Assembly: GCF_001570365.1 (NCBI RefSeq)
Contig: NZ_BBYK01000083.1
Span: 1-46,297 of the forward strand
DNA length: 46,297 bases
Direction of reading: 5' to 3'
Source: Microtetraspora fusca
GTDB taxonomy: Bacteria > Actinomycetota > Actinomycetes > Streptosporangiales > Streptosporangiaceae
Under the pieces are notes generated by a model. The model made no database searches. It saw nothing but the letters and a program-made list of their open reading frames with translations, and had not been told where the DNA came from. The first letter of the stretch is position 1. Each line of letters begins with the position of its first letter. Positions 1-11,530 of this stretch are shown one piece after another. A program made the translations under genes and the position numbers.

Positions 1-15
1 AGGGGTCCAAACCCT
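1..15 (+). other. Truncated copy of a conserved 3'-UTR hairpin (loop GTCCAAA)
   Basis: An AGGG/CCCT stem (1-4 with 12-15) closes the 7-base loop GTCCAAA. The same loop in a longer stem lies after the stop codons of the protease-like genes ending at 2171 and 3949. Its position directly before a terminator implies that the window opens in the 3' UTR of another family member lying to the left. The left part of the stem is cut by the window edge. Confidence 0.6.
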
Positions 16-35
16 GATCCATACCTGCTTCATCG

Positions 36-63
36 AAGGGCCCGGCTCTCCAGCCGGGCCCTT
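36..63 (+). terminator. Intrinsic terminator of the gene left of the window
   Basis: A perfect 12-bp GC-rich stem (36-47 with 52-63), loop CTCC, is followed by a T-rich stretch (TTCGTTTT). The core is nearly identical to the terminator at 4021-4052 after the second protease-like gene, which supports a lost upstream paralog. Confidence 0.85.
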
Positions 64-619
64 TCGTTTTGGCCTGAAGCCATAGAGGCACTGCTCGCCC
101 CCGGCCCGCCAACAAGCGGCGGCTGAGCACTGCGGCTCGTCCGTCTCACCACGCTCCCCCGAAACCCCACGGCCACGGCCCCCTTCACGATCACCGTGGT
201 CGTCGCGGCCTCTGTCCGCCGAGGAGCGTCCCCGTCGTTCCCTGTACGCCCCGATGGTTCTCCTCGACAGGAGCAGCGGCTCCGCCGGGGACGGTGACTC
301 AGAACCGGAAGCCGCGGCATTCCGGACAGCGTGGACGAGGGGCGCTGTCCCCCGTAAGCCGGATCGATCGTTGCCGTGACAGCCTGCCCGCTGGCGATTC
401 GCCGCCAGAGACACCTTCTTTCCCCATTTTCGGACGGCGTCAAATAGGCGACCTTCCGCGACCGCTGATCACGATCAGAGCACCGGCGACACCACGACAG
501 AGCGGGGCGACGGCGGATGACCCCGTTCGACTGAGGCTCCGGCGACGCATCTCCGGAGGCGCCGCGTTTGCGGGGGCGCGTTAGACGCGAGACAAGCCGC
601 TTCGGTGCCATGTCGGAAA
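64..619. other. Intergenic region with no supported gene
   Basis: About 550 bases between the first terminator and the first regulatory site. Open frames exist on both strands, but they are Arg/Pro/Ser-rich with no recognisable domain, as expected by chance at this GC. The right end (about 580-640) resembles about 2388-2450 ahead of the second gene, so this spacer was probably duplicated with the gene. Confidence 0.6.
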
Positions 620-635
620 TGTGTTTTACGTCACA
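620..635. promoter_or_regulatory. Crp/GlxR-like operator upstream of first protease-like gene
   Basis: The 16-mer TGTGTTTTACGTCACA differs by one base from TGTGA-N6-TCACA, the dyad bound by cAMP-receptor-type regulators (Crp in Streptomyces, GlxR in Corynebacterium). It ends 197 bp before the -10 hexamer at 833-838. Matching sites stand at similar distances before two sister genes (2429-2444 and 9547-9562). No regulator gene is in the window, so which protein binds is inference. Confidence 0.5.
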
Positions 636-832
636 CAGCCATTTTTCAGGGTCTTTCGGATGTAACGACTTCGCCGCGACGCTCTCGCCCAGGATCGCGG
701 CGTTGATCTGCGGAGATGGAGGGCGCCCGGCCCTCTAGATCAGATTCGAACGTAAGGTCACGGAAAGATCTCTCCGCTCCCTGTGGCGGTCCGGCTCCAC
801 CTGACGGCTTTCCTCGCGAAAGATCGCGCCGG

Positions 833-905
833 TATGTTTCCGGTCATCCCTTTACTGACGCATGGGGCGCAGGATGCGTTCCACGACAGCGCAAGGAGTT
901 CCCTC
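833..905 (+). promoter_or_regulatory. Promoter -10 and structured leader of first protease-like gene
   Basis: TATGTT at 833-838 fits an actinobacterial -10 (TANNNT) and places the start near C845, the first base of the conserved CATCCCTTTACTGACG. The 61-nt leader can form an apical stem 863-870/876-883 (two G-U pairs), a lower helix CTGACG/CGACAG (855-860 with 884-889, one A-A mismatch), and a basal CCTT/AAGG pairing (849-852 with 893-896) covering the Shine-Dalgarno AAGGAG (893-898). The -35 is not conserved. Structure is by eye. Confidence 0.6.
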
Positions 906-2171
906 ATGAAGCGCACTCTCGCCTTCGGTGGCCTCGTCGCCACCGCCGGCCTCCTGGCCGCCGGCCTGGCCGCCCCGGCCCAGGCCGCCGGCGACGTGGC
1001 CAGCACCCCGCTGGCCGCCAACAAGATCGCCGCCCAGAACGTCGCGGCGTTCTGGACCGCGGAGAACGCGGCCAACCTGATCCAGGCCACGCCGTACAAC
1101 GTCGAGACCCAGGTCTCGGCCAAGCACGTCTCGACTGGTGGTCCGGCTGCTGACAGCAAGCCTGGCGTCGTCCCGGCCATTGGCGACGAGAAGAAGACCG
1201 CCACGAAGTCGAAGAACGTCAACCTCCCGAAGACCACCGGCAAGGTGTTCTTCCTCGGTGCCGACGGCAACCCGCACTGGTGCACCGCGACCTCGGTGCA
1301 GTCCTCGTACAAGAACCTGGTCGCGACCGCCGGTAGCTGCGTCTACGACACCAAGAGCAACAAGGCCACCCTGGACCACTGGATCTTCGTGCCTGGCTAC
1401 TACCAGGGCAAGACCCCGTGGGGCATCTACGTGGGTAAGCAGGCCTTCACCCACTACGACTTCGACGTCTACGAGGACGGCGACCGCGACTACGCCTTCG
1501 TGACCGTCTACAACGGTCTGAAGTTCCCCGCCGGCGGCTTCAAGGACTTCAAGGGCATGTCCCGCGAGGAGCGGAAGCAGTACGTGGGCTTCCAGCAGGT
1601 CGACAAGGCCACGTACGACGCCTACGTCGCTGCCGACACCGCCAACGACAAGAAGCCCGGCAAGGGCAAGCACGGCAAGCACGGCCGGGGCTACTACGAG
1701 GACAAGGACGAGCAGGGCAACCCGACCTACTTCGTCTACAAGTGGACCGACGCCGGCACCCTCGGCGGCAACGTCGGTGGCCAGGGCCTGGCCTACAACC
1801 AGAAGATCGGCAAGCCGGTCTTCGTGTTCGGCTACCCGAGCGGCTCCCACCCGGACGGCAACCAGGCCTTCTCCGGCAAGACCCTCAAGTGGAGCTACGG
1901 CAAGACCTTCGCCGCCACCGCCCCCTCCATCAAGGGCGAGGAGCTGCAGGGCGTCAAGTCCTCCTTCACCGGTGAGGGCTCGCTCGGCTCCGCGTGGCTG
2001 CTCAACTACAGCAACACCCGCCGCGTCGGTTACCTGAACGGTGTCACCATCGCGGTGGCCGACCGTGACGGCAACAAGCGGATCGACACCAGCCTCTCCC
2101 CGTACTTCGACGGCGAGACCTACGGCGTCTACAACGCGGCCAAGAACAACTGGTCCGGCTCGATCGCCTAG
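906..2171 (+). CDS. Secreted trypsin-fold pseudo-protease, paralog 1 of 6
   Basis: 421 residues. ATG 906 is chosen because AAGGAG lies 7 bp upstream and because a Sec signal peptide starts there (MKR, hydrophobic core, Ala-Gln-Ala cleavage near residue 27). The S1/V8-like trypsin fold shows as a Trp-Cys, then ATAG-x-C (likely disulfide next to the catalytic His), the DRDYAF strand with the usual catalytic Asp, and GYPSG. The histidine position is Ser144 (AGSC instead of AGHC). The nucleophile motif GxSGGP is replaced by G-S-L-G-S-A-W (358-364), Leu360 aligning with the serine. About 75 residues, Lys/Gly/Tyr-rich, are inserted after the Asp strand. It is probably catalytically dead; a role in binding is inference. 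The reading frame is intact and the scaffold well conserved, so it is not a decaying pseudogene. Confidence 0.85.
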   Translation: MKRTLAFGGLVATAGLLAAGLAAPAQAAGDVASTPLAANKIAAQNVAAFWTAENAANLIQATPYNVETQVSAKHVSTGGPAADSKPGVVPAIGDEKKTATKSKNVNLPKTTGKVFFLGADGNPHWCTATSVQSSYKNLVATAGSCVYDTKSNKATLDHWIFVPGYYQGKTPWGIYVGKQAFTHYDFDVYEDGDRDYAFVTVYNGLKFPAGGFKDFKGMSREERKQYVGFQQVDKATYDAYVAADTANDKKPGKGKHGKHGRGYYEDKDEQGNPTYFVYKWTDAGTLGGNVGGQGLAYNQKIGKPVFVFGYPSGSHPDGNQAFSGKTLKWSYGKTFAATAPSIKGEELQGVKSSFTGEGSLGSAWLLNYSNTRRVGYLNGVTIAVADRDGNKRIDTSLSPYFDGETYGVYNAAKNNWSGSIA

Positions 2172-2201
2172 TTCCCGGCCTGCGGGAACCAGGTGGTCAC
2201 G

Positions 2202-2226
2202 GGCCAGGGGTCCAAACCCTGGTCCA
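2202..2226 (+). other. Conserved 3'-UTR hairpin, loop GTCCAAA
   Basis: A 9-bp stem (2202-2210 with 2218-2226, one G-U) holds the loop GTCCAAA. The loop and inner GGG/CCC are identical to the copies at 1-15 and 3979-4007, whereas the outer stem differs but stays paired. A smaller 7-bp hairpin (2172-2190) follows the stop codon directly. An RNA processing or protein-binding element before the terminator is possible. Confidence 0.55.
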
Positions 2227-2241
2227 ACCGCCTGACTCACA

Positions 2242-2270
2242 CAGGGCTCGGCTTCCAGCCGGGCCCTGTG
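2242..2270 (+). terminator. Intrinsic terminator after paralog 1
   Basis: A 13-bp stem from ACAGGGC to GCCCTGT (2242-2254 with 2258-2270), TCC loop, with a weak T tract (GCCTTTCTCT) downstream. The core AGCCGGGCCCTGT is shared with the terminator at 4021-4052. Confidence 0.8.
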
Positions 2271-2340
2271 CCTTTCTCTGGAGACGTCTGGGTGGAACGG
2301 CGGGCGCGCCGCCTTCCCTCTCGATATGCTCCAGACAACC

Positions 2341-2372
2341 GAAGGCCCCGGGGCATCCACCCCGGGGCCTTC
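2341..2372. terminator. Second strong hairpin between paralogs 1 and 2
   Basis: A perfect 13-bp inverted repeat (2341-2353 with 2360-2372), 6-base loop, about 70 bp after the first terminator. Its short A/T flanks make it a plausible backup or bidirectional terminator. Confidence 0.6.
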
Positions 2373-2428
2373 GCCGTTCTTGGGCCCCTTAGACGTGACC
2401 ACACGTCGGTTCGGTGCCATCTCACCTA

Positions 2429-2444
2429 TGTGATTTAGCTCACA
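2429..2444. promoter_or_regulatory. Perfect Crp/GlxR-type operator upstream of paralog 2
   Basis: TGTGATTTAGCTCACA is an exact TGTGA-N6-TCACA dyad and also fits the GlxR pattern TGTGANNTANNTCACA. It ends 184 bp before the -10 of paralog 2. The surrounding 60 bases align with those around 620-635, so the site came with the duplicated promoter region. Confidence 0.6.
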
Positions 2445-2535
2445 CGATCCATGATCGCTGACTGCGGGGTCACACCGTCATCAAAGCGAGCACTTCACTC
2501 TTGATCTGCCCATATGTCATCCGGCGGGCAAATGA

Positions 2536-2552
2536 CTTCCTTCCGAAGGAAG
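2536..2552. promoter_or_regulatory. Perfect 17-bp palindrome, candidate operator
   Basis: CTTCCTTC-C-GAAGGAAG has 8-bp arms around one central base, 76 bp upstream of the -10 of paralog 2. No T run follows, so it is more like a protein-binding dyad than a terminator. No identical copy was seen upstream of the other paralogs. Confidence 0.4.
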
Positions 2553-2628
2553 GTAACGGAACGATCACGTCGAGAGGGCGGCGGAATGACCTGATTGAAG
2601 TCGCTTCCACGCCGGAAGATCGCGGCTG

Positions 2629-2701
2629 TATGTTTCCGCCATCCCTTTACTGACGCATGGGGCGCAAGAGGCGTCCCACGACAGCGCAAGGAGTTCCCCC
2701 C
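2629..2701 (+). promoter_or_regulatory. Promoter -10 and structured leader of paralog 2
   Basis: TATGTT at 2629-2634 with a start near 2640-2641 on CATCCC. Apical stem 2658-2665/2671-2678 with loop AAGAG. Relative to paralog 1 one G-U becomes G-C. Lower helix CTGACG/CGACAG and basal CCTT/AAGG are unchanged. The sequence from -25 to the start codon is almost identical to that of paralog 1. Confidence 0.6.
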
Positions 2702-3949
2702 ATGAAGCGCGCTATCGCGTTCGGCGGTGTCATCGCCGCCACCGGTCTGCTGGCCGCCGGTCTGACCTCCCCCGCCCAGGCCGCCGGCGACGTCGCCAGC
2801 AAGCCGCTCGCCTCCACCGGCATCGCGGCGAAGAACATCGTGGCCTACTGGTACGCCGAGGACTCGGCGAACCTGAAGGGCGCCACGCCGTACAACGTCG
2901 AGACCAAGGCCGTCGCCAAGCACGTCTCCAAGGGCGGCCCGGCTCCCGACAGCAAGCCGGGCATCGTGCCGGCCATCGGCGACGAGAAGAAGGCCGCCGC
3001 CAAGTCGAAGAACGTCAACCTGCCGAAGACCACCGGCAAGGTGTTCTTCAAGGGTGGCGACGGCCAGCCGCACTGGTGCACGGCCACCTCGGTGCAGTCC
3101 GCGTACAAGAACCTGGTCGCGACCGCCGGTAGCTGCGTCTACGACACCGTGTCCAACAAGGCCACGATGGACTACTGGGTCTTCGTGCCGGGTTACTACC
3201 AGGGCAAGACCCCGTGGGGCATCTACGTCGGTAAGCAGGCCTTCACGCACTACGACTTCGACGTCTACGAGGACGCCGACCGTGACTACGCCTTCGTGAC
3301 CGTTTACAACGGCCTCAAGGCGCCGCACGACGGTGTGCCGCACGGCGACGACAAGCCGAAGAAGAACAACACCGGCGGTGAGGGCTGGGAGAACATCGGC
3401 GGCTGGCAGGAGGTCTCCAAGGAGGTCTTCGACCAGTACCGCGACTGGGACAGCTTCCACGGCGACACCCACGAGTACAGGGACCCCAAGGACGGCAAGG
3501 TCCACTACTTCATCTGGAAGTTCGAGGACGCGGGTGCCCTGGGCGCCAACGTCGGTGGACAGGGTCTGGCCTACAACCAGAAGGTCGGCAAGCCGGTCTT
3601 CGTCTTCGGCTACCCGAGCGGCTCGCACCCGGACGGCAACCACGCCTACTCCGGCCACACGCTCAAGTGGACCTACGGCAAGACCTTCGCCGTCCAGGTT
3701 CCGGCCATCAAGGGCGAGGAGCTCGTCGGCACCAAGTCGTCGTTCACCGGTGAGGGCGCCCTCGGCTCCGCGTGGCTGGTGAACTACAACAACGGTCGCC
3801 GCCTGGGCTACCTGAACGGTGTGACCATCGGCGTCTCCGACACCGACGGCAACAACCGTTACGACACCAGCTTCTCGCCGTACTTCGACGGTGAGCTGTA
3901 CGGCGTCTACTCCGCGGCCAAGAACAACTGGTCCGGCTCGATCGCCTAG
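2702..3949 (+). CDS. Secreted trypsin-fold pseudo-protease, paralog 2 of 6
   Basis: 415 residues from ATG 2702 (AAGGAG upstream). The signal peptide ends at an Ala-Gln-Ala-Ala site near residue 27. The scaffold is very close to paralog 1, with conserved VNLPKTTGKVFF, DRDYAF and GYPSGSHPDGN blocks. As in paralog 1 the catalytic His is Ser (Ser144). The nucleophile region reads G-A-L-G-S-A-W, so both His and Ser of the triad are lost while Asp stays. The insertion after the Asp strand (about 70 residues, rich in Asp, Lys and Trp) is largely unlike that of paralog 1, although both end in an aromatic YF-x-x-K segment. This conserved scaffold with a divergent insert suggests selection for binding rather than catalysis (inference). 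Confidence 0.85.
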   Translation: MKRAIAFGGVIAATGLLAAGLTSPAQAAGDVASKPLASTGIAAKNIVAYWYAEDSANLKGATPYNVETKAVAKHVSKGGPAPDSKPGIVPAIGDEKKAAAKSKNVNLPKTTGKVFFKGGDGQPHWCTATSVQSAYKNLVATAGSCVYDTVSNKATMDYWVFVPGYYQGKTPWGIYVGKQAFTHYDFDVYEDADRDYAFVTVYNGLKAPHDGVPHGDDKPKKNNTGGEGWENIGGWQEVSKEVFDQYRDWDSFHGDTHEYRDPKDGKVHYFIWKFEDAGALGANVGGQGLAYNQKVGKPVFVFGYPSGSHPDGNHAYSGHTLKWTYGKTFAVQVPAIKGEELVGTKSSFTGEGALGSAWLVNYNNGRRLGYLNGVTIGVSDTDGNNRYDTSFSPYFDGELYGVYSAAKNNWSGSIA

Positions 3950-3978
3950 TCTCCGCTCACGGAAACACAGCGATCCCA

Positions 3979-4007
3979 TGAGAGCAGGGGTCCAAACCCT
4001 GCTCTCA
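3979..4007 (+). other. Conserved 3'-UTR hairpin, loop GTCCAAA, longest copy
   Basis: A perfect 11-bp stem (3979-3989 with 3997-4007) around GTCCAAA. Only the inner CAGGG/CCCTG and the loop match the copy at 2202-2226. The outer GAGAG/CTCTC is different sequence but still paired, which favours a selected RNA hairpin. Confidence 0.6.
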
Positions 4008-4020
4008 CAATCGCATCACC

Positions 4021-4052
4021 CACAGGGCCCGGCTCTCCAGCCGGGCCCTGTG
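4021..4052 (+). terminator. Intrinsic terminator after paralog 2
   Basis: A perfect 14-bp stem (4021-4034 with 4039-4052), loop CTCC, followed by CCTTTTC. Nearly the same hairpin as 36-63. Confidence 0.88.
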
Positions 4053-4695
4053 CCTTTTCGGCGGCACCCCTGCCGGAAAGCACGAGAAGTGCCACAGGAA
4101 ACGCGGAAAGGACGTCACCGGCCTTTATCCCGGCCATCCCCTCGTGGAGGGTGCCGATATCCGTGTGAGCGAGACGTAGGGGTCTCAAGGGGCCGTTTGA
4201 GCTCCTCCGAGGAGGGCGTGGCCGAGGGCCGGAGGCGCTGGTCAACAGGGACGTCCCGGCGAAACCCGGATGCGGGATCGGAGAACGGCACCCGTTCCAC
4301 GTACCCACGTCATTTCCTCCGAGCATCGGCGAACCGGCGCCGGAAACCGCTACGTCGCCGACGATTCTTCGTGGCGAAACGTCTACCGGCTCAGCGAGGA
4401 AAGCCGTGGAACAACGGCCCTCGTTTCACCGCGCCACGCGGCTGCGGGCGGAAACTCTTCCACCGTCATCAACGGACGCGGCCCTTCCTGGAGCGGAAAC
4501 TCTTCCAGCCGCACGCGACCGCAATCGCCATCCGTCCTTATGTCCGTGGAAAGTTGTCAGTGGAAGGCCCCGTCGCCGACTTTCCGCCCGCGGAGACCGC
4601 CATTGCGGAGCCGTCCTCGGGGGGCCTCACCGCGTCCCGGCCCCTCGAACGGGTGGCCAGTAGTCGTTCCCAAGTCAGCTCCAAGTGCCCCCACA
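4053..4695. other. Intergenic region without supported gene
   Basis: About 640 bases. Open frames here are Arg/Ser/Pro-rich on both strands, without domains or good start sites. The only internal structure noted is the repeated GGAA-N4-TTCC dyad (4448-4462 and 4493-4507). There is no TGTGA-N6-TCACA site, unlike the upstream regions of paralogs 1, 2 and 6; TGTGAGCGAGACGTA near 4166 has only the left half. Confidence 0.5.
4448..4507. repeat. Two copies of a GGAA-N4-TTCC dyad 45 bp apart
   Basis: GCGGAAACTCTTCCA occurs at 4448-4462 and again, identical, at 4493-4507. Each holds the inverted repeat GGAA-N4-TTCC. The second ends about 190 bp before the -10 of paralog 3, the same distance at which three sister genes carry a Crp-type site. 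It may be an operator pair for a different regulator (inference). Confidence 0.4.
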
Positions 4696-4768
4696 TATGT
4701 TGCGTTACATCCCTTTCCTGACGGATGGGACGCAAGTGGCGTCCCACGACAGACCAAGGACAATTCAG
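4696..4768 (+). promoter_or_regulatory. Promoter -10 and structured leader of paralog 3
   Basis: TATGTT 4696-4701, start near C4708. Apical stem 4726-4733/4739-4746 is fully Watson-Crick: the fourth pair is A-T where paralogs 1 and 2 have G-T. Lower helix CTGACG/CGACAG is kept. The basal CCTT faces AAGG of the weak Shine-Dalgarno AAGGA (4756-4760). Confidence 0.6.
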
Positions 4769-6433
4769 ATGAAGCGCACTGTGGCATTCGGCGGCCTGGT
4801 CGCCGTCGGCGGCCTGCTCGCGGCCGGCCTCGCCGTCCCCGCCAACGCCCAGACCCCGAAGGACGAGGTCCCCACCGTCGTCCTGGCCAACACCAACCTG
4901 GCCGCCCGGCAGATCGCCGCCTTCTGGTACGGCGAGCGCCTGGCGAACCTGATCGCCGCCACGCCGTACAACGTGGAGACCAAGGTCGTCGTCAAGCACG
5001 TCTCCAAGGGCGGGCCCGCGGCCGACAGCAAGCCGGGCATCGTGCCGGCGATCGGCGACGAGAAGAAGGCCGTCGCCAAGTCGAAGAACGTCAACCTGCC
5101 CAAGACCACCGGCAAGGTGTTCTTCATCGGCGCGGACCACAGGCCGCACTGGTGCTCGGCCACCTCGGTCCAGGCCAACTACCGCAACCTGGTCGCCACC
5201 GCAGGCCACTGCGTGTACGACACCGAGTCCAACAAGGCCACCCTCGACAAGTGGGTGTTCATCCCGGGCTACTACCAGGGCAAGACCCCGTGGGGCATCT
5301 ACGTCGGCAAGCAGGCCTTCACCCACTACGACTACGACGTCTACGAGGACGGCGACCGCGACTACGCGTTCGTGACCGTCTACAACGGCGTCCTGCCGGT
5401 CGCGGCCGACAAGGAGCGCTACCAGAAGACGTGGAAGACCGAGGCTCTGGCCAAGGCCGACAAGGCCAGGATCGAGAACGACAAGACCACGGGGTACTCG
5501 GAGGTCGGGATCGAGGCCGTCCTCACCGGGGACGTCGTCGCGCCGGGGACCGCCGAGTCGCGGAAGGTCGAGAACATCGCGGTCACCGAGTTCAAGCGCC
5601 TCAACCCGGGCAAGGACCTGGGCGGCAACGGATCGTGGACCGACGGCACCGGTGCGTCGGCCCCCGTGGAGATCACCAAGGACGCCTACGGGCGCGATGT
5701 GGAGTCCTACGTCAGCGACGACGGAAAGACCTACTTCTTCCGCAAGGAGATCAAGGTAATCCCCGCCAGCGCCATGGCGCCCAAGGAGCCCGGCGAGGGC
5801 GGCGGCAACGGCGGCGGTGGCGGACGGCCCGGCGGCGGCAACGGCAACCCGGGCGGCGGTAACCCCGGTGGCGGCAACCCGGGTGGCGGCACGGGCGGCG
5901 GCACCGGTGGCGGCCAGTCCAAGGAGTACAAGTACTTCAAGCGGACCTTCTGGGCCAACTACGACCTGGACTACCAGGTCTCCGCGAAGTACCTCTCCGT
6001 CGGCCTGAAGGACGTCGGGCGGCTGGGTGACAACGTCGGCGGGCAGGGCCTGGCCTACAACCAGAAGCTCGGCGGGCCCGTGTACGTCTTCGGCTACCCG
6101 AGCGGCTCCCAGCCCGACGGCAACTACGCCTTCACCGGCAAGACCCTCAAGTGGACCTACGGCAAGACCTTCCCGGTCCAGGCCCCGGCCATCAAGGGCG
6201 AGGAGCTCGTCGGCACCAAGTCGTCCTTCACCGGCGAGGGCGCCATCGGCTCGTCCTGGCTGCTGAAGTACAACAACGGCCGCCGCCTCGGCTACCTCAA
6301 CGGTGTGACCATCGGCGTCTCCGACACCGACGGCAACAACCGCTACGACACCAGCATCTCGCCCTACTTCGACGGTGAGACCTACGGCGTCTACAAGTTC
6401 GCCGCCAACCTCTGGTCCGGCAAGATCGTCTGA
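4769..6433 (+). CDS. Secreted trypsin-fold protein with long Gly-rich insertion, paralog 3 of 6
   Basis: 554 residues, ATG 4769 with AAGGA 8 bp upstream. Signal peptide ends near Ala-Asn-Ala (about 27). It retains the catalytic His (AGHC, His147) and DRDYAF Asp, but the nucleophile motif is G-A-I-G-S-S-W (491-497), Ile493 facing the usual serine. The insertion after the Asp strand is about 200 residues: a Lys/Glu-rich part, an aromatic YVSDDGKTYFFRKE segment, then a flexible stretch of NPGGG and TGGG repeats (about 350-380) and a tyrosine-rich tail. Part of this matches the insertion of paralog 6. The Gly repeats look like a linker, so the insertion may be a separate surface domain. Catalysis is doubtful; a non-canonical serine in GSSW cannot be excluded. 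Confidence 0.85.
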   Translation: MKRTVAFGGLVAVGGLLAAGLAVPANAQTPKDEVPTVVLANTNLAARQIAAFWYGERLANLIAATPYNVETKVVVKHVSKGGPAADSKPGIVPAIGDEKKAVAKSKNVNLPKTTGKVFFIGADHRPHWCSATSVQANYRNLVATAGHCVYDTESNKATLDKWVFIPGYYQGKTPWGIYVGKQAFTHYDYDVYEDGDRDYAFVTVYNGVLPVAADKERYQKTWKTEALAKADKARIENDKTTGYSEVGIEAVLTGDVVAPGTAESRKVENIAVTEFKRLNPGKDLGGNGSWTDGTGASAPVEITKDAYGRDVESYVSDDGKTYFFRKEIKVIPASAMAPKEPGEGGGNGGGGGRPGGGNGNPGGGNPGGGNPGGGTGGGTGGGQSKEYKYFKRTFWANYDLDYQVSAKYLSVGLKDVGRLGDNVGGQGLAYNQKLGGPVYVFGYPSGSQPDGNYAFTGKTLKWTYGKTFPVQAPAIKGEELVGTKSSFTGEGAIGSSWLLKYNNGRRLGYLNGVTIGVSDTDGNNRYDTSISPYFDGETYGVYKFAANLWSGKIV

Positions 6434-6583
6434 CCCGGGTCCGGCGCAGGACGCCGATCTCCGAGGCCGGAGTCGACGCTGAGGTAAAGGGATGCCCCTC
6501 AGACAGGCAGGGGGAGTCCGGCCAGTCGACCGGGGCGTGACGCGCCCGTCACGATCTCGTACGGCACTCTCCCACTGCCTGAG

Positions 6584-6614
6584 CACAGGGCCTGGCGCGC
6601 AGCCAGGCCCTGTG
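6584..6614 (+). terminator. Intrinsic terminator after paralog 3
   Basis: A perfect 13-bp stem (6584-6596 with 6602-6614), loop GCGCA. There is no strong T run, but position and strength fit termination between two same-strand genes. Confidence 0.75.
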
Positions 6615-6636
6615 TCATGTCATGGCAAATGAACGG

Positions 6637-6702
6637 TAATCTTCCTCTTTACCGAGGTAACGGGCGCTGCCAGCGTCCACGCAGAGAGCGCAAGGAGCGT
6701 CC
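6637..6702 (+). promoter_or_regulatory. Diverged promoter and leader of paralog 4
   Basis: TAATCT at 6637-6642 is a possible -10, but its spacing to the leader differs from the sister genes. The apical hairpin survives as GGGCGCT/AGCGTCC (6662-6668 with 6672-6678). The 5' segment CTCTTT (6645-6650) can pair with the Shine-Dalgarno AAGGAG (6692-6697) over six positions with one G-U. Occlusion of the ribosome site is therefore kept by different bases. Confidence 0.4.
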
Positions 6703-7875
6703 GTGAAGCGCGTCGTCCTGGCCGCCACGCGTACGGCGGCCGTCGCCGGGATGCTCTGTGCCGCCACGCTCGCCATCTCCGGCCCGCCCGCACACGCGTA
6801 CGACATCGCCGCCACCCGCCCCCTCGCCACGGAGGCCCAGGTCCCCTCCGTGCTGGCGTACTGGCTCGGCGGCGACGGCCGCGCCCTCACCGCCGCCACG
6901 CCGTACGTGTTGCGACTGAAGGTGACCGCGCGCCAGACGGAGCGCGGCGCGACGGCGGACGGCAAGCGGGGCGGCGTACGGCCCGCCGACAGCAGCCCGG
7001 CGGAGGGGAAGGCCGGGCCCGGAAAGACCGCGGACGGAAAAACCGACGCGAAGCCGGAGGGCGGCAAACTCGCCCAGGACGCGACCGATCCGGACCGGAC
7101 GGCACAGGACGGGAACGGCACGGCCGGCTCCAAGAACGTCAACCTGCCCCGGACCACGGGCCGGGTCTTCTTCGTCGGATCCGACGACAAGCCCCACTGG
7201 TGCTCCGGCACCTCGGTCCAGGCCGCGCACCGCAATCTCGTCGCCACCGCCGGGCACTGCGTCTTCGACACCGAGACCGACAGCGCGCCGATGCGAAACT
7301 GGATCTTCATCCCCGGCTACCAGCCGGGCGCGGTTCCCTTCGGCGTCTACGCGGGCAAGCAGGCGTTCACCCACCACGACTTCGCGACGTACCGGGACCT
7401 CGACCGCGACTACGCCTTCGTCGCCGTCCACAACGGCCTCACGCCGCAGTCGTCGCGCACTCCGGGACGCGTCATCAAGCTGGCCGACGGCGGCCGACTG
7501 GGCGACGGCGTCGGGGGCCAGGGGCTCGCCTACAACCAGGAGCTCGGCCGCAGGACCGCCGTCTTCGCACATTCCATGCCACCGGTGCGCGGTGCGACGT
7601 TCCCGCTCCAGGATCCGTCCATCCGCGCGGACGCTCTGCTCGGCCTGAAGTCGTCCCGGACGGCCGACGGCTCGTCCTGGCTGATCGGCTACCGCAAGTC
7701 CGGGCGGCTGGGCTATCTGAACGGCGTCACCATCGCCATGTCCGGCGGCGCCGCCGTGTCGCCCTATTTCGACGGCGAGCTCTACAGCGTCTACGTCGCG
7801 GCCCGGAAGGTCCACTCCGGCACGGTGCCCGGCGGCGTCTTCCGCGACGGCGCAAACGAGATCAACATTCTGTAA
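6703..7875 (+). CDS. Secreted trypsin-fold protein, most diverged array member, paralog 4 of 6
   Basis: 390 residues from GTG 6703 (AAGGAG 5 bp upstream). Signal peptide ends near Ala-His-Ala (about 28). His185 (AGHC) and the DRDYAF Asp are present. The nucleophile region is shortened to A-D-G-S-S-W (321-326), so GxSGG is absent. The insertion after the Asp strand is missing. Instead there is a hydrophilic 50-residue insertion before the VNLPRTTG block, rich in Lys, Gly and Asp. The GYPSG loop is also replaced by an AHSMPP segment. It is the fastest-evolving member and is probably non-catalytic. Confidence 0.8.
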   Translation: MKRVVLAATRTAAVAGMLCAATLAISGPPAHAYDIAATRPLATEAQVPSVLAYWLGGDGRALTAATPYVLRLKVTARQTERGATADGKRGGVRPADSSPAEGKAGPGKTADGKTDAKPEGGKLAQDATDPDRTAQDGNGTAGSKNVNLPRTTGRVFFVGSDDKPHWCSGTSVQAAHRNLVATAGHCVFDTETDSAPMRNWIFIPGYQPGAVPFGVYAGKQAFTHHDFATYRDLDRDYAFVAVHNGLTPQSSRTPGRVIKLADGGRLGDGVGGQGLAYNQELGRRTAVFAHSMPPVRGATFPLQDPSIRADALLGLKSSRTADGSSWLIGYRKSGRLGYLNGVTIAMSGGAAVSPYFDGELYSVYVAARKVHSGTVPGGVFRDGANEINIL

Positions 7876-7924
7876 CAAACCGCTCCGCATATATCAGGAC
7901 ATGGGGGTTCCTGAAGGGGTGCTG

Positions 7925-7999
7925 TAGGTTTTTTACCATCCCTTTACTGACGATATGGGGCGCAGTAGCGGCCCTCATCAGCGCAAGGAGCGAACCCTC
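7925..7999 (+). promoter_or_regulatory. Promoter -10 and structured leader of paralog 5
   Basis: TAGGTT 7925-7930, start near C7937 on CATCCC. Apical stem 7957-7963/7968-7974 pairs at six of seven positions (one G-G). The lower helix is CTGA/TCAG: the A-A mismatch of the sister leaders is here an A-T pair, a compensating change. Basal CCTT can face AAGG of AAGGAG (7985-7990). Confidence 0.55.
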
Positions 8000-9100
8000 A
8001 TGCAGAAGCATCTGCTTCTTCCCCTGGGCGGCCTCGCCGCCACCGGCCTCCTGGCCGCCGCCCTGGTAACCCCCGCCACGGCCGCGTCCACCGTGTCGAA
8101 GGCCAAGCTCGCCTCCCCCGCGAACGCCGCGGACATCATCGACTTCTGGACCTCCGACAGCGGCGCCAACCTCAAGGCCGCCCAGGCGTACGGCGCCGAG
8201 CACAAGCGCGTGCCGAAGCACGTCTCCACCGGCGGACCCGCCGCCGACGGCAAGCCGGGCGTCGTGCCGGCGATCGGCTACGAGAAGGTGGCCGGCGGCA
8301 AGTCCAAGAACGTCAACCTGCCCAAGACCGTGGGCCGCGCGTTCTTCGTCATCGGCAACGACCTCTACGCCTGCTCCGCGTCGGCGATCCAGTCGCAGTA
8401 CCGCAACCTGGTCGCCACCGCCGGCCACTGCGTCTACGACCTCGACAGCAACCGGCAGACCGTGAGCAAGTGGGTCTTCGTCCCCGGCTACTACGACGGC
8501 AAGGCCCCGTGGGGTGTCTACGTCGGCAAGCAGGCGTTCACGCACTACGACTTCGACGTCTACGAGGACCTCGACCGCGACTACGCCTTCGTCACGGTCT
8601 ACAACGGCATCGGGTACGACGCCAAGAAGGAGGCGTTCGTCGACCTCGGCCCGCTCGGCTCCAACGCCGGCGGCCAGGGCTTCGCGTACAACCAGAAGGT
8701 CGGCCAGCCGGTCTTCGCCTTCGGCTACCCGGCCGCGCCGCACGACGACGGCAACTACGTCTTCACCGGCGAGAAGATGAAGTGGTGCTACGGCAAGCCC
8801 GTCTACCCGGTCGTCGAGAGCAGCGTGAAGGTCGAGGAGCAGATCGGCCTCAAGTGCTCGATGACCGGCGGTTCCTCCGGCGGCCCCTGGATCCTCAAGT
8901 ACAACAGCAACCGTCGCCTCGGCTACATCAACGGCGTGACCAGCCTCGGCGGTGACACCGACGGCAACCACCGCAGCGACATGATCACCTCGGCCTACTT
9001 CGACGGTGAGACCTACGGCGTGTACCGCACCGCCTACTCCCTCTGGTCCGGCTCGCTGGTCAAGAAGGACGGCTCGATCGGCATCACCGAGACGAAGTAA
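8000..9100 (+). CDS. Secreted trypsin-like serine protease with intact triad, paralog 5 of 6
   Basis: 366 residues, ATG 8000 with AAGGAG 9 bp upstream. Signal peptide with Ala-Thr-Ala cleavage near residue 28. This is the only array member with all hallmarks of an S1/V8-like endopeptidase: His143 in TAGHC, Asp194 in DRDYAF, and Ser293 in GSSGGP (291-296). It lacks the large insertion and has extra cysteines (YACSA, KWCYG, KCSMT) that could form a second disulfide. It is likely exported through Sec and active outside the cell; substrate unknown. An inhibitory propeptide is possible, since about 75 residues precede the VNLPKT block in all paralogs. It may process or compete with its pseudo-protease neighbours (inference). 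Confidence 0.88.
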   Translation: MQKHLLLPLGGLAATGLLAAALVTPATAASTVSKAKLASPANAADIIDFWTSDSGANLKAAQAYGAEHKRVPKHVSTGGPAADGKPGVVPAIGYEKVAGGKSKNVNLPKTVGRAFFVIGNDLYACSASAIQSQYRNLVATAGHCVYDLDSNRQTVSKWVFVPGYYDGKAPWGVYVGKQAFTHYDFDVYEDLDRDYAFVTVYNGIGYDAKKEAFVDLGPLGSNAGGQGFAYNQKVGQPVFAFGYPAAPHDDGNYVFTGEKMKWCYGKPVYPVVESSVKVEEQIGLKCSMTGGSSGGPWILKYNSNRRLGYINGVTSLGGDTDGNHRSDMITSAYFDGETYGVYRTAYSLWSGSLVKKDGSIGITETK

Positions 9101-9206
9101 CGCGGACGCCCTCCGCGCGCCTTCCTGAGGCGCCGTTCGGCGAAAGCGCAGCCGGAAGTGCCCGCGGCCTCCGACGCGCGTTTTCCCGAACGGCGCCTTT
9201 TCCCAT
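9101..9206. other. 3' flank of paralog 5
   Basis: GC-rich sequence with inverted segments around GGCGCCGTTCGGCG (about 9130) and CGAACGGCGCC (about 9187). GGCGCCGTTCG and its complement CGAACGGCGCC could pair across about 60 bases into a large hairpin. Confidence 0.35.
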
Positions 9207-9322
9207 GGCGTTCTCCGGTACGGCGTTCTTTCGAGGCGTTCTCCGGTACGGCGTCCTTCCTGAGGGGCGTTCTTCCAAGGCGCTCTCGGGTACGGCGTTC
9301 CTCTTGAGGGGCGTTCTTTCAC
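9207..9322. repeat. Degenerate GGCGTTCT...GGTACGGCGTT repeats
   Basis: Three to four imperfect units built from GGCGTTCTCCGGTACGGCGT with short variable T/C- and GAGG-rich joints, between the stop of paralog 5 and its terminator. Units are 28-45 bases and not in a useful coding frame. They look like local slippage duplication in a 3' UTR. Purpose unknown. Confidence 0.5.
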
Positions 9323-9346
9323 GAGGCCCGGCTCAGGCCGGGCCTC
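9323..9346 (+). terminator. Intrinsic terminator after the repeat tract
   Basis: A perfect 10-bp stem (9323-9332 with 9337-9346), loop TCAG, followed by TTCTC. The hairpin core GGCCCGGC/GCCGGGCC resembles the other array terminators. Confidence 0.8.
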
Positions 9347-9546
9347 TTCTCATGTCCGCGTTCCCGGTGACGGATCCCCAGGCGCCCCGGCCCCACACGA
9401 TGGGCCGACACGCTGACGGCAACCCGCCGCACTGGCCCCCAGGCCGGGTCAGCAAATCACGACAAATCCGACAATCGGGCACCCCTGAAGAGGCCACACC
9501 GGCGGCGCCCCCTCGGCTCGCGATCGCCTCACCCCTCTCGCCAAAC

Positions 9547-9562
9547 TGTGACTCTTGTCACA
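9547..9562. promoter_or_regulatory. Perfect Crp-type operator upstream of paralog 6
   Basis: TGTGACTCTTGTCACA is an exact TGTGA-N6-TCACA dyad. It ends 202 bp before the -10 of paralog 6, close to the distances seen for paralogs 1 and 2. The bases around it do not align with those sites, so conservation of the dyad itself is notable. Confidence 0.6.
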
Positions 9563-9764
9563 CCCAAAAAATGCAACCTTTTCCGGACTTCGTGAACCAC
9601 CCCCGCCCCGAATGCGGCCCCTATCTGCCCATCTGGGGAAATATCTCTTTTCGGTACCAACTCCCTGTGAGTCGAAAAATACCTGTTTGATAACGCTGAG
9701 ATCACAGGATGCTGTGAGCCGAAGAGGCGCCCAAACAGCCCTTTGGGGGTCGAGATCTTCGCTG
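9563..9764. other. AT-richer spacer upstream of paralog 6
   Basis: About 200 bases of lower GC than the window average with several A/T runs (AAAAAATG near 9566, GAAAAATACC near 9675). No gene or clear second promoter was recognised. It could bend or separate the operator from the promoter. Confidence 0.4.
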
Positions 9765-9839
9765 TAGGGTCCCGGTCATCCCTTTACTGACGGTTGGAAC
9801 GCAGAGGCGTTCCACGACAGCGCGAGGAGCGAACCCCCA
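9765..9839 (+). promoter_or_regulatory. Promoter -10 and structured leader of paralog 6
   Basis: TAGGGT 9765-9770, start near C9777 on CATCCC. Apical stem 9795-9802/9807-9814 is fully Watson-Crick with two A-T pairs where paralog 1 has two G-T pairs, the clearest covariation in the set. Lower helix CTGACG/CGACAG is kept. The Shine-Dalgarno is GAGGAG, and its GAGG can still pair with CCTT. Confidence 0.6.
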
Positions 9840-11369
9840 ATGAAGAAGCGCATGCTTCTCCCCCTCGGCGGCGTCGCCGCCGCCGGACTCCTGAGCTCCG
9901 CCATGGTCACCCCCGCCCACGCCGCCGGTGACGTCGCCGCCAAGCCCCTGGCGAGCCAGACGCTCGCCTGGGAGATCGCCGCCTTCTGGTACGGCGAGGA
10001 CAAGGCCAACCTGATCGGCGCCACGCCGTACAACGTGGAGACCAAGGTCGTCGCCAAGCACGTCTCGACCGGCGGCCCGTCCGCGGACACCAAGCCCGGA
10101 CTCGTGCCCGCGATCGGCGACGAGAAGAAGTCGACCGTCCGGTCCAAGAACGTCAACCTGCCCAAGACCACCGGCAAGGTGTTCTTCATCGGCGGCGACG
10201 GCGAGCCGCACTGGTGCACCGCGACCTCGGTGCAGTCCGGCTACCGCAACCTGGTCGCCACCGCCGGCCACTGCGTGTACGACACCGAGTCGAACAGCCA
10301 GACGCTCGACAAGTGGGTCTTCATCCCGGGTTACTACCAGAGCAAGACCCCGTGGGGCATCTACGTCGGCAAGCAGGCCTTCACGCACTACGACTACGAC
10401 GTCTACGAGGACGGCGACCGCGACTACGCCTTCGTCACCGTCTACAACGGTGTCCTCCCGGACAACTCCGGCGCCGAGGTCAGCGAGTCGGAGTACCGCA
10501 AGTACCCGCGCACCCCCGACCTGCGTCAGCCCGAGGTCCGGGTGTACGAGACCAAGGCCGAGGCGCTCGCCCACAAGGGCAAGGGCAAGGTCGAGGAGAT
10601 CGTCGACACCGACCACGTGGTGGCGCACGACACCCCGGGCTCGTCCGACTGGATCGGCATCACCCGTGCGGAGTACCTCCGCCTCACCGGGGGCGCGGAG
10701 GAGCAGATCGCCGGCAAGGTCGAGCGGAAGGACACCAAGCTGACCGCCGACGACCCGGCGGTGAAGGGCAAGACGCTCCCCTACGCCAGCTCGGACGGCA
10801 AGAAGTACTACTGGAAGAAGGAGATCAAGCCCGCCGAGGGTGAGACTCCGGCCGAGTACGAGTACTACGTCAGCGAGTTCTGCGCGAACTACGACCTGGA
10901 CTACAAGGTCACGCGGTACTTCGTGCGGACCTTCACCGACGTCGGCCGCCTCGGCGACAGGGTCGGCGGGCAGGGCCTGGCCTACAACCAGAAGATCGGC
11001 AAGCCGGTCCACGTCTTCGGCTACCCGAGCGGCTCCCACCCGGACGGCAACTACGCCTACACCGGCAAGACCCTCAAGTGGAGCTACGGCAAGACGTTCG
11101 CCGCCAAGGCTCCCGAGATCAAGGCCGAGGAGCTGGTCGGCGTCAAGTCCTCCTTCACCGGTGAGGGCTCGATCGGCTCGTCCTGGCTGCTCAACTACAA
11201 CAACGGCCGCCGCCTGGGCTACCTGAACGGCGTCACCATCGGGCTGGCCGACACCGACAAGAACGACCGCATCGACACCAGCGTCTCGCCGTACTTCGAC
11301 GGCGAGCTGTACGGCGTCTACAAGGCCGCGGCCAACCTCTGGTCCGGCAGCATCGTGCCGAAGTACTAG
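9840..11369 (+). CDS. Secreted trypsin-fold protein with long insertion, paralog 6 of 6
   Basis: 509 residues from ATG 9840. Signal peptide ends near Ala-His-Ala (about 27). His144 (AGHC) and the DRDYAF Asp are present. The nucleophile motif is G-S-I-G-S-S-W (443-449), so the canonical serine position is Ile445. The insertion after the Asp strand is about 170 residues, charged in its first half. Its second half (SSDGKKYYWKKEIKP, then ANYDLDYKV) matches part of the paralog 3 insertion, without the Gly repeats. Paralogs 3 and 6 thus form a subgroup with a shared, fast-changing extra domain. It is probably not a classical protease. Confidence 0.85.
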   Translation: MKKRMLLPLGGVAAAGLLSSAMVTPAHAAGDVAAKPLASQTLAWEIAAFWYGEDKANLIGATPYNVETKVVAKHVSTGGPSADTKPGLVPAIGDEKKSTVRSKNVNLPKTTGKVFFIGGDGEPHWCTATSVQSGYRNLVATAGHCVYDTESNSQTLDKWVFIPGYYQSKTPWGIYVGKQAFTHYDYDVYEDGDRDYAFVTVYNGVLPDNSGAEVSESEYRKYPRTPDLRQPEVRVYETKAEALAHKGKGKVEEIVDTDHVVAHDTPGSSDWIGITRAEYLRLTGGAEEQIAGKVERKDTKLTADDPAVKGKTLPYASSDGKKYYWKKEIKPAEGETPAEYEYYVSEFCANYDLDYKVTRYFVRTFTDVGRLGDRVGGQGLAYNQKIGKPVHVFGYPSGSHPDGNYAYTGKTLKWSYGKTFAAKAPEIKAEELVGVKSSFTGEGSIGSSWLLNYNNGRRLGYLNGVTIGLADTDKNDRIDTSVSPYFDGELYGVYKAAANLWSGSIVPKY

Positions 11370-11494
11370 ACCACCGGTTCCCCGGGCGGCGCGGTGCCCG
11401 CCGCCTGGCAACCCGTACGCGGCCGTCCGCGGCACCCGGACGGCCGCGTACACCGGACGGACCGGCGGGGCACGGCGAAGCGCCTCAAGAGAAC

Positions 11495-11530
11495 GAAAGG
11501 GGGCCCGGCCACACGGCCGGGCCCCCTTTC
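11495..11530. terminator. Bidirectional terminator between paralog 6 and malic enzyme gene
   Basis: A perfect 16-bp inverted repeat (11495-11510 with 11515-11530), loop ACAC, with A run on the left and T run on the right. It serves both convergent genes and closes the protease-like array. Confidence 0.88.

Follow-up and report, generated by a model that had tools for sequence, protein, structure and literature searches.

The aprE leader of Bacillus subtilis is a 5' stem-loop that stabilises the messenger RNA (mRNA) of a secreted protease. The FourU and ROSE thermometers pair the Shine-Dalgarno (SD) sequence with a U-rich strand. According to a review (PMC7509114), stem-loops are protective, and mutations in the ribosome-binding site of aprE shorten the mRNA half-life. 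Here we describe a leader shared by a family of genes whose products are secreted and resemble proteases. It lies in a stretch of 46,297 nucleotides of Microtetraspora fusca (contig NZ_BBYK01000083.1), hereafter the window, whose first 11.4 kb are taken up by six tandem genes for secreted proteins. The main form of the leader, consisting of CATCCCTTTMCTGACG, then a hairpin and then the SD, is 61–63 nt long and stands before genes 1, 2, 3, 5 and 6, while gene 4 has a diverged form. This leader keeps a fixed distance behind the -10 hexamer, and its imperfect hairpin is kept by pair-preserving changes that pass through G-U. We propose, with a probability of roughly 0.6, that it is a structured, cis-acting and lineage-specific 5' mRNA leader which determines the access of ribosomes, the lifetime of the mRNA, or both. 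It would then control the expression of the gene downstream.

A preliminary description of the window, made from its letters alone, had noted a common leader start before five genes, and all five copies are present. The start reads CATCCCTTTACTGACG (CATCCCTTTCCTGACG in one copy) at 845, 2640, 4708, 7937 and 9777, and the distance from the first base to the start codon is 61, 62, 61, 63 and 63 nt in the same order, so the near-constant length is also borne out. All features are on the forward strand. Before gene 1, the -10 hexamer TATGTT (833–838) is followed by the leader at 845–905, with the hairpin at 863–883, the lower helix at 855–860/884–889 and the SD at 893–898. Gene 2 has TATGTT at 2629–2634 and its leader at 2640–2701 (SD 2688–2693), and gene 3 has TATGTT at 4696–4701 and its leader at 4708–4768 (SD 4756–4760). 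The hexamers of genes 5 and 6 are TAGGTT (7925–7930) and TAGGGT (9765–9770), with leaders at 7937–7999 (SD 7985–7990) and 9777–9839 (SD 9824–9829). The spacing of exactly seven bases from hexamer to leader that had been claimed holds in four of the five copies, where six bases lie between the two. At 2640 the hexamer is one base nearer, with five between. The stem pairs named at 866–867, 2661–2662, 4729–4730 and 9798–9799 are as described. In the leader at 7937 the A-A mismatch of the lower helix is indeed replaced by A-U, but next to it C-A has taken the place of C-G, and the mismatch of this variant helix (CATCAG) is shifted rather than healed.

The same layout is seen far beyond the window. 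All but one of the 149 rows with an assigned leader have a leader of 57–66 nt. Relative to the C of CTGACG, a TANNNT hexamer is found at -22 in 94 and at -21 in 45 of 149 upstream regions, with other offsets accounting for at most five each. Because of this fixed offset, transcription is predicted to start at the first bases of the leader, (C)ATCCCTTT. Conservation reaches 1.35–1.88 bits per base over the CCCTTT tract and 1.86–2 bits over CTGACG, the latter partly by construction since the rows were anchored there. Most leaders form the lower helix from CUGACG/CGACAG, which contains an A-A mismatch, and its variants have the mismatch moved (CAUCAG), a bulged base (CGUACAG) or a closed helix (TGGCG with CGCCA). 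The loop varies from 4 to 6 bases. A coding upstream open reading frame (ORF) was considered and rejected: an AUG occurs in 114 of 134 distinct leaders, but since these AUGs fall in all three frames (39, 38 and 34 of 111) the leader is not coding.

Wherever it could be checked, and leaving two chance matches aside, the leader precedes one gene family. With at most one mismatch, the 16-base leader start has 13 sites in the 9.02 Mb host genome versus none for a reversed-pattern control, and all 13 precede a family gene, which in one case is truncated where the contig stops. We built a covariance model, R1, from 33 leaders (alignment A1, 33 of 35 leaders with two duplicates omitted). It has 15 matches in the host genome (best E 4.5e-15). 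Across the host's family, the Streptosporangiaceae, 137 of 341 genomes have a match, and these belong to 25 of 68 genera. One of these, in genome G334, is weak (E 0.009) with no family gene behind it and was taken as false. With a limit of E 1e-20, 143 of 338 Streptosporangiaceae genomes have the protein family itself, among them all 136 remaining leader genomes. The other seven consist of five with weak protein matches near 1e-21 and two (G329 and G080) with no leader match. In an even sample of the class, 296 genomes, leader and protein family occur in the same 11, and one more genome has a weak protein match only. At the level of single leaders, a family gene lies downstream at 147 of 150 aligned copies, the remaining three reaching the ends of their loci, and behind six of seven further isolated matches, the seventh being that of G334. 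A pattern scan of named genomes found at least 117 stretches. Among the matches listed, 116 are from Streptosporangiaceae (Nonomuraea 36, Microbispora 19, Microtetraspora 13, Acrocarpospora 13, Herbidospora 10 and others) and one is from Asaia. Also among the matches listed, 162 distinct pattern sites are followed by 400 bases or more, and 161 of them precede a family ORF; the exception, the lone Asaia site, looks like a chance match. For this survey 40 regions and some further places were chosen by hand for spread over genera.

The second line of evidence is the covariation of the stem. Alignment A2 was made from the 150 best-scoring of 162 matches and has 134 distinct rows. In it 96.5% of cells are paired, a figure favoured by the fitting of A2 to the covariance model, and two-sided changes occur in 46 cells versus 16.1 in shuffles; slid registers never rise above 49% paired. 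We also counted changes by parsimony on a single FastTree tree of the downstream proteins, for 139 distinct rows whose proteins are 130 aa or longer. Across the six variable pairs, double changes that keep the pairing number 12, whereas 1.1 would be expected if one column evolved independently of the other (0 of 1,000 simulations). Breaks number 20 versus 35.1 expected and unpaired tip cells 49 versus 116.8, while wrong partners give a mean of 1.2 double changes and a maximum of 4 in 265 rearrangements. The path of these changes is that expected of an RNA. With the loop-closing pair set aside, the upper stem has 95 G-U and 6 A-C cells (134 distinct rows), and in five of the six pairs, again leaving out the loop-closing one, 69 events run via G-U (74 with U-A to U-G) versus 8 that touch A-C. 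Base pairs kept by two-sided changes across species are the mark of a structured cis-acting RNA leader, and such pairs are found here. The stem covaries in many genera, as expected of the family-wide structured leader that the preliminary description had suggested, and on this comparison of sequences it is most likely a real RNA structure under selection.

Several observations weigh against a structured leader with a function of its own. A lack of significant covariation had been named beforehand as grounds for dropping the idea, and the outcome depends on the statistic: as to significance, the counts of pair-preserving change are, but a G-test with average product correction and a tree null (139 rows) finds no significant pair, the best structure pair having E of about 6. 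We judged this test to be weak since single long branches inflate its null, and the counts were added for this reason. Even in these counts only two of the six pairs, 24/42 and 29/38, are individually strong (0 of 1,000), while of the other four one stands at 0.019 and three are not significant. The folding energy of the six leaders in the window is only slightly better than that of shuffles (z from -0.90 to -2.78, the latter for gene 3). When all 13 pairs are taken, the preference for G-U falls to 98 versus 35 A-C cells, 20 of the latter in the loop-closing pair and 9 in the lower helix. Leaders may also be copied together with their genes, so that breadth of presence alone is no proof of function. 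Finally, two Herbidospora leaders (L202 near 5428 and L206 near 2824) have CC(C)TTTACC followed straight by ACGCATGGAG, seemingly with no hairpin, and a third Herbidospora gene (L157, reverse strand) probably also keeps the tract without the hairpin. It follows that tract and hairpin may have separate jobs.

Other leaders have diverged. Among 349 distinct family members (score above 300), CTGAC(G/A) is present in 279 and a CCxTTT-like tract right behind the -10 hexamer in 36 others, while the remaining 34 have neither by the patterns used. One diverged class, from Nonomuraea, carries UCCGUUUGCUGA and UCAGCGCAACCUGGAG, and in another, from Acrocarpospora and Herbidospora, a helix of CCUUCA(U) with (A)UGAAGG is possible across the SD. 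The leader type of gene 4 recurs in three other loci (L018, L031 and L034). In the window this diverged region lies at 6643–6702, counted from a putative 5' end, with CTCTTT at 6645–6650 and the SD at 6692–6697. It had been proposed that CTCTTT pairs with AAGGAG in this leader, placed at 6637. The complementarity is there in the sequence, but CTCTTT is probably mostly upstream of the expected start and, if TAATCT (6637–6642) is the -10 hexamer, could not pair in the RNA.

If the structured-leader reading is right, the RNA would fold into a single long, imperfect hairpin that starts near nucleotide 4 and ends at the SD, made up in order of CCUU/AAGG, CUG/CAG, CG/CG and an apical stem of 8 bp. 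The 5' end and the ribosome site would be partly covered by default, and this covering would set the rate of ribosome loading and the lifetime of the mRNA. The CCCUUU tract, which hardly varies, and CUGACG/CGACAG would further suggest a recogniser, which may be a protein, the ribosome or another RNA. As to how the leader acts, we tentatively put ribosome access through partial covering of the SD first, as a possible but by no means assured route.

Predicted folds agree with this route in part. In the minimum-energy fold, all but two of 150 leaders have two bases of the SD paired. For the SD core the predicted pairing averages 0.87 (59 leaders, from 60 sampled in the main class). This bears out, as a prediction, the earlier proposal that CCTT near the 5' end can mask AAGG of the ribosome site, but coevolution gives it no backing. 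One duplex test used 272 distinct leaders of 50–72 nt with scores above 300, drawn from 436 family members of which 366 were assigned a leader, and grouped into 36 class representatives. For these representatives matched tracts and SDs form duplexes of -4.31 kcal/mol versus -4.83 kcal/mol for swapped ones. In another test, over 61 combinations, the values are -4.18 versus -4.65 kcal/mol, again with the matched duplexes weaker, and both tests speak against SD masking maintained by coevolution. Neither does the folding depend much on the native tract. When the first ten bases are shuffled SD pairing is still 0.79 and when they are deleted it is 0.62, and among the 36 representatives it is 0.71 for native and 0.69 for shuffled leaders. 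Thus, these results tell against a masking that is specific to each gene. The complementarity between tract and SD is general and not tuned gene by gene; it plausibly comes from an AGGAG-like SD and a CU-rich tract being present in most leaders.

A rather unlikely alternative is that the leader acts chiefly by stabilising the mRNA at its 5' end, in the manner of Bacillus aprE or E. coli ompA, where a hairpin near the terminus and a bound ribosome block decay that depends on the 5' end. The family would in this way have long-lived mRNAs for abundant secreted proteins. The hairpin does lie near the predicted 5' end and ahead of genes for secreted proteins, and stem-loops are named as protective in the review cited above (PMC7509114). 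Mere stabilisation would, on the other hand, have no need of the strongly conserved CCCTTT tract.

Another alternative is that a dedicated factor, either an RNA-binding protein or a small RNA, docks on the leader and so regulates all genes of the family in trans, with the stem presenting the conserved 5' tract and the lower helix. Conservation over CCCTTT (1.35–1.88 bits per base) goes beyond pairing, and there are many copies in each genome, with 15 matches here. But the conservation may result from duplication together with the genes, and the sequence has changed in other subfamilies, so we regard a docking site as unlikely. A full-length antisense small RNA was rejected. All 13 sites of the 16-mer in the host genome (at most one mismatch, both strands) precede family genes, which means that there is no separate site of full complement; this holds for the full length only, as short seeds were not searched.

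Two further explanations are highly improbable. An RNA thermometer, in which a rise in temperature would separate CCUU from AAGG and so free the ribosome site, would fit the partly paired SD of the predicted fold, but the predicted temperature response is flat (SD pairing 0.90 at 20 °C and 0.79 at 55 °C in silico, for up to 25 of the sampled leaders), there is no match to the Rfam thermometer families in the window or in 14 related loci, and the idea was rejected. A DNA operator, with the palindrome bound by a repressor or an activator shortly after the transcription start, would account for an inverted repeat whose distance to the -10 hexamer is fixed and for the 26 C-A cells in the loop-closing pair (poorly kept, with 28 of 134 unpaired and 18 of these C-A) and the lower helix (8, in CATCAG-type variants), but it is rejected because a DNA palindrome would show no G-U preference, whereas the upper stem has 95 G-U versus 6 A-C cells and 69–74 versus 8 events, and its loop varies in length from 4 to 6.

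A second RNA element is associated with part of the family. It is a hairpin in the 3' untranslated region with the loop GUCCAAA, which we take to resemble a tRNA T-loop, and it lies at 2200–2227 behind gene 1 and at 3980–4007 behind gene 2, both on the forward strand. It sits between the stop codon and a terminator-like hairpin of family genes. Another copy is found at window positions 1–17, and three occur in a row in locus L122 (359–465). The core GGGGUCCAAACCC is invariant, in an alignment that was selected for 12 of these bases, while the outer stem covaries, with two-sided changes in 39 cells versus 17.4 in shuffles. The host genome has four exact cores. A model of this hairpin was run on 40 chosen genomes, 25 that carry the family and 15 others. 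It gave 28 strong matches (E below 1e-3) in 8 genomes, all of them carriers, and 18 of the 28 are within 40 bases behind a family gene among the matches listed. With weaker matches (E up to 0.1) the number of genomes is 14, one of which, G009, is a non-carrier. It is conceivable, though we think it improbable, that the Streptosporangiaceae have a dedicated post-transcriptional system in which a single lineage-specific factor reads both the 5' leader and, for part of the genes, the T-loop-like 3' hairpin, with compensatory changes in both. Such a system would serve one expanded family of secreted protease-like proteins.

The six genes of the cluster encode secreted trypsin-like proteins and are all on the forward strand. 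Gene 1 (906–2171) encodes 421 aa with Ser in place of the His of TAGHC, and gene 2 (2702–3949; 415 aa) is its paralogue with 73% identity and no Pfam match. Genes 3 (4769–6433; 554 aa), 4 (6703–7875; 390 aa) and 6 (9840–11369; 509 aa) are of the same kind. Gene 5 (8000–9100; 366 aa) encodes a trypsin-like protease that keeps both TAGHC and GGSSGGPW. Only gene 5 passes the cut-off of Pfam Trypsin_2; gene 1 is below it, and four of the six proteins have no Pfam match. The closest solved structures for genes 1 and 5, both of which were used as queries, are bacterial serine proteases. Many family members have the look of pseudo-proteases, such as genes 1 and 2 with TAGSC instead of TAGHC. Sorted by simple patterns, 389 members of at least 330 aa comprise 185 with a GS(A/S)W-like motif at the place where 82 others keep SGGP, and 122 unclassified. 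The 3' hairpin at 1–17 is of the family type, and another contig of the host (G000:C50) ends, at 190987, inside a family gene. The window and this contig may be neighbours, in which case the cluster would have ten or more genes. A relative (G001) has nine leaders within 16 kb.

The leader was suspected from the start to be undescribed, and our searches agree. Rfam 15 has no family at the gathering threshold in the whole window or in 14 related loci (146,611 bases). A lax search of positions 1–11500 gave seven sub-threshold matches, none of them on the leaders of genes 1, 2, 3, 5 and 6. No description was found in the literature searched, which left out most subscription journals. It is apparently a family-specific structured 5' leader RNA that has not been described before. 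Tied to one gene family, this RNA element is recognised by the covariance model in far more than a hundred genomes, and a single genome can have as many as 15 matches. Nonomuraea and Microbispora, in which it is found, are known as antibiotic producers. The copies within each genome, the diverged classes and the apparent natural losses of the hairpin provide a ready set in which to study how the leader fold tunes the output of secreted proteins.

Compared with known systems, the leader shares with the FourU and ROSE thermometers a pyrimidine tract to which the SD is complementary. It differs from them in that pairing is nearly flat with temperature in silico and shows no coevolution. Like the B. 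subtilis aprE leader (see PMC7509114), it is short, with a stem-loop near the 5' end, the ribosome site downstream and a gene for a secreted serine protease or protease-like protein behind it. Unlike that leader, the element here is common to a gene family and its stem covaries. In kind, it resembles the cis-regulatory leader motifs of Rfam, being a short structured 5' leader of one gene family that is found by covariation.

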